NCBI RefSeq assembly: GCF_003852715.1
Contig: NZ_RIAV01000002.1
Span: 186,001-250,000, forward strand
Length of the DNA stretch: 64,000 nucleotides
Source of the DNA: Ectobacillus antri
GTDB taxonomy: Bacteria; Bacillota; Bacilli; Bacillales; Bacillaceae_G
Direction: 5' to 3'
Part shown: in pieces, positions 3,053 to 52,561 of the stretch
Layout of the letters: each line of letters starts with the position of its first letter
Numbering within the stretch: the first letter of the stretch is position 1
Notes under the pieces: model-generated
Told to the model about the DNA's origin: nothing
Database searches by the model: none
Seen by the model: only the letters and a program-made list of their open reading frames with translations
Made by a program: the position numbers and the translations under genes

Positions 3053-3111
3053 AAACTGTACGTACAAGGACACCTGCTGAGGTGTCTCTTTGCTGTAAAA
3101 GGGGGACCGTC

Positions 3112-5244
3112 ATGAAAAAGAAGCAAAAGAAGAAAAAGAGTCATGTGCCAATTCGGCTGAATATATTGTTTTTCATCGTGTTTGTTATGTTTTCTGCGCT
3201 CATTTTGCGATTGGGTGTTGTTCAAATTGTATATGGAGAAGACTATACTAAAGAAGTTGAGCGTACGGAAAATTTAACGGTTAACACACCTGTACCGCGC
3301 GGAAAGATGTTTGATCGCTATGGTAGAACAGTTGTTGATAATACACCACTTCGAACTATTACATATACACGTATGAAAGGATCGAAGAGCGAAGAGCGCC
3401 TTGAGCTTGCAAAAGAATTGGCTAAGCTTATGGATATGCCTACAGATAAGTTGACAGAGCGAGATAAAAAAGATTTTTGGATTGAATTGAACCCAGATAA
3501 GGCTAAAAAGAAAATTACCAAAAAAGAATGGGATGCATTTGAAGCAAAGAAGCTGAGCGATAAAGACATTTATAATTTGCAATTAGAACGTGTCACTGCT
3601 GCAGATTTAAATCAATTTACGCCTGCAGACTTAGAAGTGTTAGCGATTAAGCGGAAAATGGACGGTGGTTATGCCATGACACCGCAAATTATCAAAAATA
3701 AAGATGTAACGCCTGAAGAATATGCGCGCATCAGCGAAAATCTAGATCGCTTGCCGGGAGTGGATACAACTACAGATTGGGAACGTAATTATACGTATGG
3801 TGATATGTTTACATCTGTACTGGGAAGAGTCACTAATGCAGATGAAGGTCTACCGCGCGAACAGCTTGATTATTACTTGGTGCGTGATTATAACCGGAAT
3901 GACCGCGTTGGAAAAAGCTATATTGAGCAGCAATATGAAGATGTGCTGCACGGAACAAAGGCACAAATTAAAAATGTGACAGATAAAGATGGGAATATTT
4001 TAGAACAGGTGTATTTGTCTAAAGGAGAGCGCGGCAAGGACTTGATTTTGACCATCGATATGGAATTACAAAAAAGAGTAGAGCAAATTATTGAAGAAGA
4101 GCTAAAGGTGGCCAAGTCTAAGGGTGGCACCCAATTTTTAGACCGCGCGTTTGTTGTGATGATGGATCCGCGCAACGGAGAAATTTTATCTATGGCGGGC
4201 AAGCAACTTGTCACGAATGAACAAGGACAGCTACAGGTGAGTGATTACGCGCTTGGAACTATGACCAGTTCTTATCAAGCGGGTTCAGCAGTAAAAGGTG
4301 CGACTGTGCTAACTGGTTTTCAAACAGGCGTTATTCAGCCTGGTAGCAAACTAATAGATGAACCCATCAGAATCAAAGGTACACCAGTTAAAAAGTCTTA
4401 TAAAACAATGGGAGAAATTAATGATTACTACGCGTTAGCGCGTTCATCTAACGTATATATGTTCCGAATTGCGATGGAAATTGCAGGAGCCAAATATGTA
4501 CCTGGCGCACCGCTATATATTCCTTCTAAGGCATATGATACAATGCGCTATTATTTCAGCCAATTTGGGCTAGGTGTACCGACAGGTATTGATCTTCCAA
4601 ATGAATCGGTCGGATTTAAAGGAGCAGAAACAAAAGTGCCCGGACTATTGCTTGACTTATCCATTGGTCAATACGATACCTATACACCTCTTCAATTGGC
4701 ACAATATGTTTCAACCATTGCCAACGGTGGATATCGTATCAAACCGCAAATTGTAAAAGAAGTGCGCGATCCAGTTTCAAAACCAGGTGAAATTGGTAAA
4801 GTGGTAAAATCAATGGAACCCGTAGTATTAAATCGGATTGATATGAGCACAGAGTATATTAAACGTGTACAAGAAGGCTTTCGAGCTGTAATGTCCGATT
4901 CAGAAGGAACTGCGACAAATGTGTTCGGCACAGCTCCATATCAGCCTGCGGGTAAAACGGGCACAGCACAGACCTTTTATGATGGTCCTGATGAAGCAAA
5001 ACGAAAGAGCGGTCCAAAGGGGACATTGCCACCAACGTACAATTTAACGTTAGTTGGATATGCACCTTACGATAATCCAGAGGTTGCTTTCTCAGTAGTT
5101 GTACCATGGGTTTCTGATGATAATAATCGCATTAATAAAGTTATCGGTCGCAGAGCGTTAGATGCATATTTTGAACTGAAAAAAGAAGCTGTTAAAATAG
5201 AAGCAGATCCTACCATTGTACCGGAGAGTACAGATAATCCATAA
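3112..5244 (+). CDS. pbpA: class B penicillin-binding protein 2 (elongation transpeptidase)
   Basis: A 710-residue monofunctional D,D-transpeptidase that cross-links peptidoglycan on the outer face of the membrane during rod elongation. It has a very basic N-terminus, one membrane anchor at about 17-38, a dimerisation domain, and a transpeptidase domain with S392-A-V-K395, S445-S-N447 and K615-T-G617, so the active site is intact. The start at 3112 follows GGGGGA; the earlier in-frame start at 3082 lies in a hairpin. Synteny and length match B. subtilis PbpA (PBP2A). A terminator follows directly. Confidence 0.92.
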   Translation: MKKKQKKKKSHVPIRLNILFFIVFVMFSALILRLGVVQIVYGEDYTKEVERTENLTVNTPVPRGKMFDRYGRTVVDNTPLRTITYTRMKGSKSEERLELAKELAKLMDMPTDKLTERDKKDFWIELNPDKAKKKITKKEWDAFEAKKLSDKDIYNLQLERVTAADLNQFTPADLEVLAIKRKMDGGYAMTPQIIKNKDVTPEEYARISENLDRLPGVDTTTDWERNYTYGDMFTSVLGRVTNADEGLPREQLDYYLVRDYNRNDRVGKSYIEQQYEDVLHGTKAQIKNVTDKDGNILEQVYLSKGERGKDLILTIDMELQKRVEQIIEEELKVAKSKGGTQFLDRAFVVMMDPRNGEILSMAGKQLVTNEQGQLQVSDYALGTMTSSYQAGSAVKGATVLTGFQTGVIQPGSKLIDEPIRIKGTPVKKSYKTMGEINDYYALARSSNVYMFRIAMEIAGAKYVPGAPLYIPSKAYDTMRYYFSQFGLGVPTGIDLPNESVGFKGAETKVPGLLLDLSIGQYDTYTPLQLAQYVSTIANGGYRIKPQIVKEVRDPVSKPGEIGKVVKSMEPVVLNRIDMSTEYIKRVQEGFRAVMSDSEGTATNVFGTAPYQPAGKTGTAQTFYDGPDEAKRKSGPKGTLPPTYNLTLVGYAPYDNPEVAFSVVVPWVSDDNNRINKVIGRRALDAYFELKKEAVKIEADPTIVPESTDNP

Positions 5245-50104: not shown

Positions 50105-50292
50105 ATAATCGCCTCCTTTTACTATAGTCCCCAATCATATAGCATTACAAAGAAAAAAGTGATTGGCAAGAGTTTTTTGAGTGAAGAGAAGGAGAATTTT
50201 TATATGGAAATTATTGATGGTTGTGGTGGCTGATGAAAAAATGTGCAGCGCTTATACTACATAAAGAGAAAGTAACGAAGGGAATGAGTCGC
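50105..50292 (+). other. region upstream of splB with a nine-codon peptide frame
   Basis: A 188-bp divergent region. At 50204-50233 an ATG preceded by AGAAGGAG opens a frame reading MEIIDGCGG then stop. B. subtilis has splA here, but no SplA-like protein is visible. The frame may be a leader peptide or a degraded gene. Confidence 0.35.
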
Positions 50293-51318
50293 TTGAAGCC
50301 ATTTTTGCCCAAATTGGTATATTTTGAGCCACAGGCCTTAGAATATCCACTTGGAAAAGAGTTGTACGAACAGTTTACAGCAATGGGCCTTGAAATTAGA
50401 GAAACTACTTCACATAATCAAATTCGTGATCTGCCTGGAGAAAATGAACTACAAAAGTATCGATATGCTAAAGCGACGCTTGTTGTAGGTGTGCGCCGGA
50501 CTTTAAAATTTGATACGTCTAAGCCATCAGCTGAATATGCCATTCCGTTGGCGACAGGTTGTATGGGACATTGTCATTATTGTTACTTACAGACAACGTT
50601 AGGGAGCAAACCGTATGTACGTGTATATGTCAATTTAGAGGAAATTTTTGAACAAGCGCAAAAGTATATGGAAGAGCGTGCTCCGGAGATAACTCGTTTT
50701 GAGGCAGCATGTACATCAGACATTGTTGGTATTGATCATTTAACACATGCTTTAAAGAAAACGATAGAATTTATTGGTCAAACTGAATACGGACAATTGC
50801 GGTTTGTAACGAAGTATTCACATGTCGATCATCTCCTAAATGCGAAGCATAATGGGAAAACGCGTTTTCGCTTTAGCATTAATTCACGTTATGTTATTAA
50901 AAACTTTGAGCCCGGTACATCGCCGTTTGAAGACCGAATTGAAGCGGCACGTAAGGTAGCAAATGCCGGTTATCCGCTTGGGTTTATTGTAGCCCCCATT
51001 TATATGCACGATGATTGGGAAGAGGGGTATCGAGAATTATTTGAACGATTGCATGCTTCTCTTAAAGACATAAGTTTACCCAATTTATCTTTTGAAATGA
51101 TTCAACATCGTTTTACCAAACCAGCGAAAAAGGTGATTGAAAAGCGGTATCCAAATACAAAGCTTGAGATGGATGAAGAAAAGCGTAAATATAAATGGGG
51201 TAGATACGGAATTGGAAAGTATGTGTATCCTACTGAAGAAGCGGCTCTTTTAGAAAAAACTATTCGTTCGTATATCAATACTTACTTTCCTGATGCCCAT
51301 ATACAATACTTTACTTAA
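50293..51318 (+). CDS. splB: spore photoproduct lyase
   Basis: A 341-residue radical-SAM enzyme that repairs the spore photoproduct in UV-damaged spore DNA during germination. With the TTG start at 50293, the iron-sulfur cysteines are Cys90, Cys94 and Cys97 (CMGHCHYC) and the hydrogen-donor cysteine is Cys140 in FEAACTSD. The N-terminus then reads MKPFLPKLVYFEP, the usual start of the family, with GAAGGGA ten bases upstream. Longer frames from 50233 or 50284 are possible. A forespore (sigma G) promoter is expected but not clear. Confidence 0.93.
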   Translation: MKPFLPKLVYFEPQALEYPLGKELYEQFTAMGLEIRETTSHNQIRDLPGENELQKYRYAKATLVVGVRRTLKFDTSKPSAEYAIPLATGCMGHCHYCYLQTTLGSKPYVRVYVNLEEIFEQAQKYMEERAPEITRFEAACTSDIVGIDHLTHALKKTIEFIGQTEYGQLRFVTKYSHVDHLLNAKHNGKTRFRFSINSRYVIKNFEPGTSPFEDRIEAARKVANAGYPLGFIVAPIYMHDDWEEGYRELFERLHASLKDISLPNLSFEMIQHRFTKPAKKVIEKRYPNTKLEMDEEKRKYKWGRYGIGKYVYPTEEAALLEKTIRSYINTYFPDAHIQYFT

Positions 51319-51418: not shown

Positions 51419-51847
51419 ATGCCTACTCCGAGTATGGAAGATTATATAGAACAAATTTATTTGTTAATTGAAGAAAAAGGGTATGCACGCGTTTCAGACA
51501 TTGCAGAAGCGCTAAATGTACACCCATCTTCGGTTACTAAGATGGTACAAAAGCTTGATAAAGATGAATATTTGATTTATGAAAAGTACAGAGGCCTTAT
51601 TTTAACGACAAAAGGTAAAAAAATTGGCAAACGCCTTGTATATCGTCATGAATTATTAGAACAGTTCATGCGTATCATCGGACTGAACGAAGCCAAGATT
51701 TATGACGATGTAGAAGGGATCGAGCATCACCTAAGCTGGGAAGCGATTGATCGCATTGGTGATTTAGTACAATTTTTTGAAGAAGATAAAACGCGCATTG
51801 AGGTATTACGTGCTATCCAAAAAGTGAATGAAGAACAAAATCAATGA
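51419..51847 (+). CDS. mntR: manganese transport regulator MntR
   Basis: A 142-residue DtxR-family repressor that binds DNA when loaded with Mn(II) and represses manganese uptake genes. The metal ligands Asp8, Glu11, His77, Glu99, Glu102 and His103 are all present, and the Asp8 typical of manganese rather than iron selectivity is kept. GGAGG precedes the ATG; the frame is open from 51368. Length equals B. subtilis MntR. No mnt transporter is beside it. Confidence 0.96.
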
Positions 51848-51849
51848 CA

Positions 51850-51882
51850 GGAAGCTGTGTTTGTACAGCTTTCTTTTTTATT
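51850..51882 (+). terminator. terminator after mntR
   Basis: GGAAGCTGT and ACAGCTTTC form a stem with one wobble pair, followed by a T run. Confidence 0.82.
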
Positions 51883-51954
51883 GTAAAAAACTGTTTATTC
51901 TTAAAGTTTAAACATGTATAATTTGTATATAAAGGTAAAATTAGGAGGTGTGAA

Positions 51955-52128
51955 TTGATTACAGAAGAGATGCGTAAGTACTTAAGTGGCAATCCATACG
52001 GCTTTGAAAAGAGCAAATTATTGACTGAAGAAAAAAAGGGGAAACATGTGCAAGTTGCAACAGCCCCGATTATTCAAATTACTCCTGATATGCGCGCTGT
52101 GATAAGTGGTAATCCATATGAAATCTAA
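51955..52128 (+). CDS. 57-residue protein with duplicated SGNPY motif, unknown
   Basis: A TTG-started frame with a strong TTAGGAGG site five bases upstream. The product reads MITEEMRKYLSGNPYGFEKS at the start and ITPDMRAVISGNPYEI at the end, so ITx(E/D)MRxx(L/I)SGNPY occurs twice, separated by a charged linker of about 28 residues. The gene is bounded by terminators on both sides. I know no family for it. The repeat suggests two copies of a short binding motif. Confidence 0.7.
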   Translation: MITEEMRKYLSGNPYGFEKSKLLTEEKKGKHVQVATAPIIQITPDMRAVISGNPYEI

Positions 52129-52168
52129 AAAAGACCGTGCTAGAATGAAGCACGGTCTTTCTTTTTAC
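52129..52168. terminator. bidirectional terminator between the SGNPY gene and yqhP
   Basis: AAAGACCGTGC pairs with GCACGGTCTTT across a nine-base loop, with A run before and T run after. It overlaps the last codons of yqhP. Confidence 0.9.
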
Positions 52169-52508
52169 CTTTTTTTCCTTCAATAACAGTCAGGTGGGAT
52201 GGTTTGCGCTTTTTCTTAAATACAGAGCCGTTTTTTCCCTTCTGCGCATCCTGCATTTTCAATGGTGCAGTAAATGATTTTGCATACTTACGTTTTGATT
52301 GCTTTGCAGCACGATTATAAGATGAGCGCGCACTTCCGCTACTGGAAAATAACTTGAATAGCAAAAAGAAGGCGCCGATAACAATACCAATAGTCAACAC
52401 GTTTTGGATCATACCTGCCGGGTCATTCATAGTGGAAGTAATCATCTGATATGCTGCTAGCCCAATAACAAGTAGAAATAGAATTAGCGCAAATGAACGG
52501 CCGCTCAC
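52140..52508 (-). CDS. yqhP: YqhP family membrane protein
   Basis: A 122-residue protein with two membrane segments (about 4-21 and 33-53) and a very basic C-terminal tail (KQSKRKYAKSF, KKKRKPSH, GKKGKKKDRASF). This fits YqhP of B. subtilis (SA1362-like), function unknown. The GTG at 52508 is chosen because AGGAGG is eight bases upstream; the GTG at 52517 overlaps that site. It is followed by yqhQ in the opposite order on this strand, as expected. Confidence 0.78.
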   Translation of the reverse strand: MSGRSFALILFLLVIGLAAYQMITSTMNDPAGMIQNVLTIGIVIGAFFLLFKLFSSSGSARSSYNRAAKQSKRKYAKSFTAPLKMQDAQKGKNGSVFKKKRKPSHLTVIEGKKGKKKDRASF

Positions 52509-52561
52509 GGCACACACCTCCTAAAGGCATTTATTTAATCATATTGAGAAGAGCGGAATAT

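Follow-up and report, generated by a model that had tools for sequence, protein, structure and literature searches.

A Double-Box Microprotein Gene of Ectobacillus antri and Its Relatives Among the Small Proteins of Bacillales

Introduction

A 64,000-nucleotide stretch of the Ectobacillus antri genome (contig NZ_RIAV01000002.1, positions 186,001–250,000; hereafter, the window) contains an open reading frame (ORF) of only 57 residues that starts with TTG and carries a similar short motif at each end of its product. This locus raises the question of whether so small a frame encodes a protein and, if so, which proteins are its relatives and how they might act. The ORF very likely codes for a protein and groups with a widespread, uncurated family of Bacillales microproteins. 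This family is an order-wide group of tiny proteins that is new to curated libraries and of a known general kind, the small proteins of sporeformers, and the double-box form found in the window is a variant inside it.

The Window Gene and Its Signals

The 57-codon ORF (51955–52128, + strand) sits between the splB–mntR pair and a convergent gene. Profile matches of the Pfam/NCBIfam type assign these context genes as splB, encoding spore photoproduct lyase (50221–51318, + strand), mntR (51419–51847, + strand), and a gene for a SA1362-family protein (52140–52517, − strand). A ribosome-binding site, AGGAGG (51943–51948, + strand), is located 6 nt 5′ of the TTG codon, and is preceded by a candidate sigma-A-type promoter (51894–51922, + strand) in which TTTATT, a weak −35 hexamer, is separated by 17 nt from TATAAT; this arrangement was missed by a promoter scanner that demanded 4 of 6 matches per hexamer. 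A hairpin scan identified terminator-like structures 3′ of mntR (51849–51874, + strand) and between the ORF and the SA1362-family gene (52130–52160, + strand), i.e., two within 51700–52300 versus a mean of 0.3 in shuffled sequences. By eye, a sequence resembling the second hairpin is also present 3′ of mntR in relatives. The frame, TTG start, strong ribosome-binding site, and terminators on either side that were described in the first-pass annotation are all borne out.

The encoded protein contains two copies of a 14-residue box with the form ITx(E/D)MRxx(I/L)SGNPY, termed the C-box after its position in other family members. C-box 1 (ITEEMRKYLSGNPY; 51958–51999, + strand) and C-box 2 (ITPDMRAVISGNPY; 52078–52119, + strand) have 9 of 14 residues in common, and no internal 14-mer repeat this good arose in 20,000 shuffles of the window protein, which confirms the duplicated motif ending in SGNPY noted previously. 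Both copies represent the family C-box (T-[DE]-[ED]-M-R-x-x-[IL]-[SG]-G-N-P-[YF]), C-box 2 having P for D/E after T. A C-box pattern occurs twice in the six frames of the window, both times in the 57-residue ORF. Across 1.19 million six-frame residues from 100 loci, it was found 92 times inside family members and never outside them.

The first-pass annotation also held that the two halves are closer in protein than in DNA and saw selection in this. The contrast does not hold up: there is no clear difference between 9 of 16 residues and 29 of 48 bases, and 9 codons differ between the 14-codon boxes, 4 of them synonymously. Selection is argued from the dN/dS values of relatives instead.

An Order-Wide Family of Two-Box Microproteins

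Ordinary members of the family are 44–64 residues long and mostly acidic (median pI 4.6), and a variable linker joins their N-box (KPxHYDGS) to their C-box (LTDEMRKNISGNPY). With a full-length profile built from 57 members, the family is detected in 137 of the order's 397 genomes and 38 of its 135 genera (E ≤ 1e-6), with genome G017, from a sister genus of the window's genus, counted through its double-box gene. At E ≤ 1, the motif profile (A2) has matches, often weak ones, in 279 of the 397 genomes; a scan of the collection gave 19 loci. Two-box proteins occur in Sutcliffiella, Rossellomorea, Metabacillus, Mesobacillus, Neobacillus, Priestia abyssalis, and others; in Gottfriedia (genus g2, assigned by the identity of its proteins to those of named records), small genes away from mntR encode an N-terminal KPxHYDGS and one C-terminal C-box. 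In a class-wide draw, 15 of 398 genomes had matches at E ≤ 0.01, and 13 of these genomes were within the order. The remaining two matches (E 0.005 and 0.007) are partial and were disbelieved, and to judge by these sequences the family does not convincingly extend outside the order.

In total, 118 distinct members were gathered from earlier loci and from 100 stretches taken around 100 of the matches listed, one of which (L203) lacked a member. Among the 118 C-boxes, R is present in 117, T in 113, and E in 101, in a set gathered with a pattern that prescribed N and P and demanded R or K. The search of bacillar genomes for the SGNPY repeat that had been proposed as a check thus finds the motif conserved across the order, and the objection that it might lack conservation fails. 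The N-box is absent from the window ORF, and the two pattern matches to KPxx(Y/F)DG in the same genome both lie outside any comparable small ORF. Since its N-box is missing, the window ORF is regarded as a derived, box-sharing relative rather than a regular family member.

Family members evolve under purifying selection, as the proposed Ka/Ks comparison in relatives reveals. Over 26 close pairs, each member being used once, the pooled dN/dS is 0.20, and pN is above pS in two pairs. By part, dN/dS is 0.07 for the N-box, 0.13 for the C-box, and 0.31 for the linker. Given the low pooled value and the lowest values in the boxes, translation of the frame is very probable, and the two boxes are both important.

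Curated resources returned no credible relative of this family. Pfam, scanned with 57 of the 118 members, gave single-member matches to four families (best E 0.038), and NCBIfam, scanned with 57 members, gave one (E 0.07); all are attributed to chance, as are DsbC_N for the window ORF (E 0.017, below the cut-off) and PUA_3 for the G017 form (E 0.025). Small acid-soluble spore protein (SASP) families, namely alpha/beta SASP (PF00269) and the other Ssp families of Pfam, were unmatched by the window ORF, the 57 members, three Gottfriedia proteins, and two double-box relatives. A PHROGs search with five proteins gave no credible match (best E 0.042), and a PDB sequence search with the family profile gave no relative; its best match, to FKBP (E 0.45), is chance-like and was rejected as a structural relative. 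One query against a plasmid collection found nothing, and one against a phage collection found a single chance match inside a homing endonuclease. A literature search found no publication linking SGNPY and Bacillus, and among the matches listed for the family motif strings, none concerned Bacillales by title. The earlier statement that the protein cannot be connected to any family is correct for the curated libraries searched; a large uncurated family exists. Roughly one in three of the genomes sampled from the order carries a strongly conserved microprotein without a Pfam or NCBIfam match.

The Double-C-Box Form in Close Relatives

The double-C-box form, without an N-box, is located beside mntR in three of the four genomes of the window's genus and in one genome of a sister genus. 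Within the taxonomic family of the window, 4 of 19 genomes carry the gene 3′ of mntR (the window's own genome, G000; G002 and G003 of the same genus; and G017), and in the other 15 (G001 of the same genus, G018, and 13 of Gottfriedia) no double-box gene was found within about 1.5 kb 3′ of mntR. This distribution suggests that a second C-box took the place of the N-box arm in the window's lineage.

Both boxes of the G002 gene are divergent. Between G000 and G003, dN/dS is about 0.29 (54 codons). The G003 gene has lost one base from an A/G run and is thereby split, its boxes lying in different frames; its halves have pN of 0.086 and 0.088 and pS of 0.25 and 0.27. Because both halves still show pN below pS, the deletion probably arose recently or reflects a sequencing error. 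With this split copy, and with no copy after mntR in G001, retention of the double-box gene is not strict even among members of the genus. Between the two boxes of the window gene (52036–52050), AAGGGG is located six bases 5′ of an in-frame GTG, so that it is conceivable that this GTG serves as a start giving the second box alone; the split G003 copy would require something similar.

In G001, a 49-residue ORF (L235, 1465–1614, − strand) carries an N-box alone (KPLYYDGSGS...) and no C-box, and an N-box protein was not found in G000, G002, or G003. Taken together, these findings indicate that the boxes behave as separable modules. Between the split gene of G003 and its SA1362-family gene there is also a 509-residue ORF (L024, about 3062–4591), secreted-looking by eye, which is missing at the corresponding place in the window.

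Promoters and a Probable Link to Sporulation

For 81 non-redundant members out of the 118, upstream regions were scanned with sigma-factor consensus models, which for sigma-G is TGAATA-N16–18-CATACTA. At ≤2 mismatches, sigma-G-type matches precede 14 of the 81 members versus 1.1 expected in shuffles, and four scrambled sigma-G consensus controls gave 0 to 2 matches (0.8 to 0.9 expected). Other genes in the same loci had matches in 3 of 286 cases (Fisher p about 1e-7, a value that, like the other promoter p-values, is too small because of kinship among members) and azoreductase genes in 3 of 48. As a positive control, SASP genes had matches in 4 of 25, a score lowered by the scripted placement of at least 8 of the 25 starts at an internal Met. 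In 13 of the 14 sigma-G cases, the −10 element begins 29 to 44 bases 5′ of the start codon; in one it begins 57 bases away. At ≤3 mismatches, the counts are 40/81 for members, 31/286 for neighbours, 20/48 for azoreductase genes, and 9/25 for SASP genes, and this level is weakened because azoreductase genes score hardly differently from the small genes.

The sigma-F model is also enriched (26/81 members versus 29/286 neighbours at ≤2 mismatches), and PMC3789822 describes the promoters of sigma-F and sigma-G as similar. The sigma-K model is weakly enriched (32/81 versus 73/286), and no enrichment was found for sigma-E at ≤2 mismatches (1/81 versus 2/286) or, in ordinary members, for sigma-A (3/81 versus 24/286). 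Instead of the sigma-G boxes, an unbiased motif search, whose control used single-base shuffles and 60 seeds versus 200 in the real run, returned AGTAMAATAG in 40 of the 81 upstream regions; AGTAMAATA is found in 22/81 members versus 2/286 neighbours. An inverted repeat, TTAGTA-N-TACTAA, lies over the promoter (three perfect and five one-mismatch cases of 80; 0 and 0.9 expected) and overlaps both the sigma-G boxes and the AGTAMAATAG element, such that operator and promoter are indistinguishable here. In loci such as L123, L074, and L170, TTAGTA-N12/13-TACTAA occurs with AGTAMAATAG about 45–52 bases before the start.

The enrichment of sigma-G-type promoters makes forespore expression of ordinary members likely, as far as upstream sequences can indicate. 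None of the 15 genomes that lack spoIVA has the family, versus 137 of 382 that possess it, a correlation that is weak because the 15 genomes fall in few clades. The window copy is different: its best sigma-G match has 4 mismatches, and its upstream region has TATAAT at −38 as well as sequences that fit the models for sigma-F and sigma-B with 2 mismatches. A perfect TATAAT is located 31 to 39 bases 5′ of the start in all four double-box genes, which are related and thus represent fewer than four independent cases, versus 19/432 control genes and 10/118 ordinary members over roughly that interval. The suggestion of a spore-associated peptide consequently suits the ordinary members, by their promoter statistics and weakly by co-occurrence with spoIVA, and finds no support in the window copy.

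Structure and Proposed Mode of Action

AlphaFold2 predictions, of low confidence for both forms, depict mainly extended chains with a short helix per C-box: one helix at residues 30–36 in the ordinary form (mean pLDDT 69.7, pTM 0.25), and helices at residues 4–10 and 44–51 in the window protein (mean pLDDT 62.1, pTM 0.25). The helix has Thr ahead of it and Gly-Asn-Pro behind it, classical capping residues in keeping with a short helix that becomes ordered when it binds.

The explanation that we tentatively favor as a whole, at somewhat less than an even chance, is that the family consists of disordered, two-armed adaptors of the forespore and that the window form has two like arms and a sigma-A-like promoter. 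The protein would be largely disordered and serve as a peptide adaptor with two arms. Each C-box would form a short helix (DEMRKNI), its start capped by (L)T and its end closed by S/G-G-N-P, with Y/F behind; a putative partner protein may read this self-capped helix, and the N-box would supply a second, putative docking motif. For ordinary members, synthesis would probably take place in the forespore, with transcription by sigma-G (or sigma-F) polymerase. In the window's lineage, where a second C-box would take the place of the N-box arm, the peptide would hold two copies of one putative partner, or one dimer, and the gene, beside mntR and under a sigma-A-like promoter, would probably be expressed vegetatively. 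The idea of a small bivalent adaptor, raised in the first-pass annotation, agrees with the anatomy of two boxes in both the ordinary and double forms, although G001 has an N-box-only ORF. A bolder formulation, which we consider rather doubtful, is that a large, undescribed family of forespore peptide adaptors with two portable docking boxes spans Bacillales, and that in one lineage a box was swapped and the gene came under vegetative control, so that a hetero-bivalent linker became a homo-bivalent clamp for a putative conserved partner.

Both boxes can serve straight away as bait peptides for finding a putative partner, and the promoter evidence directs attention to the forespore. As a natural box-swap experiment, the double-box form could help to tell the roles of the two boxes apart.

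Alternative Explanations and Neighbouring Genes

The product might instead be a minor structural protein of the spore core that works by mass, as filler, nitrogen store, or DNA binder, in the manner of small SASP families. Like SASPs, the family comprises tiny proteins of Bacillales sporeformers with sigma-G-type promoters at a similar rate; all 137 genomes of the order that have it possess spoIVA, and the genes are small and often followed by a terminator-like hairpin (within 80 nt 3′ of the stop codon in 74 of 118 members versus 3.0 in shuffles). SASP families nevertheless give no credible sequence match, the acidic composition is unlike that of DNA-binding SASPs, and two separate, short, strongly conserved boxes around a freer linker look like specific recognition, so that this explanation seems unlikely. 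Still less probable is that the ordinary gene encodes a small regulator or inhibitor of a redox enzyme, acting on the adjoining FMN azoreductase. An AzoR-type gene is near the member in 71 of 97 loci of the order (25 genera; L154 and L186 are left out of the neighbour counts), lying 3′ on the same strand in 69 with a median gap of 190 nt, and the one such neighbour scanned is an FMN-dependent NADH-azoreductase. A terminator-like hairpin, however, intervenes in 42 of 64 scanned members followed by azoR, indicating that the two are often separate units, and the neighbours are different in Gottfriedia, P. abyssalis, genera g63 and g64, and the window's genus; the small gene therefore looks like an independent unit.

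The repeated SGNPY in a short, precursor-like protein, near the radical-SAM gene splB in the window, could also mark the core of a modified or secreted peptide. This we hold to be very improbable: splB encodes a normal spore photoproduct lyase, no maturase or peptidase recurs across clades (30 largest neighbour clusters, first 110 residues, by eye), the N-box is conserved as much as the C-box, and no signal peptide was seen by eye. The hairpins that are frequent before azoR, the other gene positions in other genera, and the amino-acid-level selection in both boxes make it scarcely credible that these short ORFs 5′ of azoR genes are leader or regulatory ORFs whose translation matters and whose product does not.

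Under the favored adaptor reading, other sporulation microproteins offer a parallel. SpoVM, CmpA, Sda, MciZ, and Fin are thought or known to dock on a larger partner; they resemble the present family in being microproteins and differ in that the family has two box types, and to our knowledge none of them shares its boxes. YpzI of B. subtilis contains HYDG and SspO a stretch like LTEAER; neither protein was named in the scan of the 57 members against Pfam, a library that may lack either. MFS-type transporters also recur near the family gene (11 Gottfriedia loci and 12 Rossellomorea loci). In L104 and L168, inverted repeats of the type ATCTCG...CGAGAT were seen by eye between the small gene and azoR, and are reminiscent of the MhqR operator of quinone-response genes.
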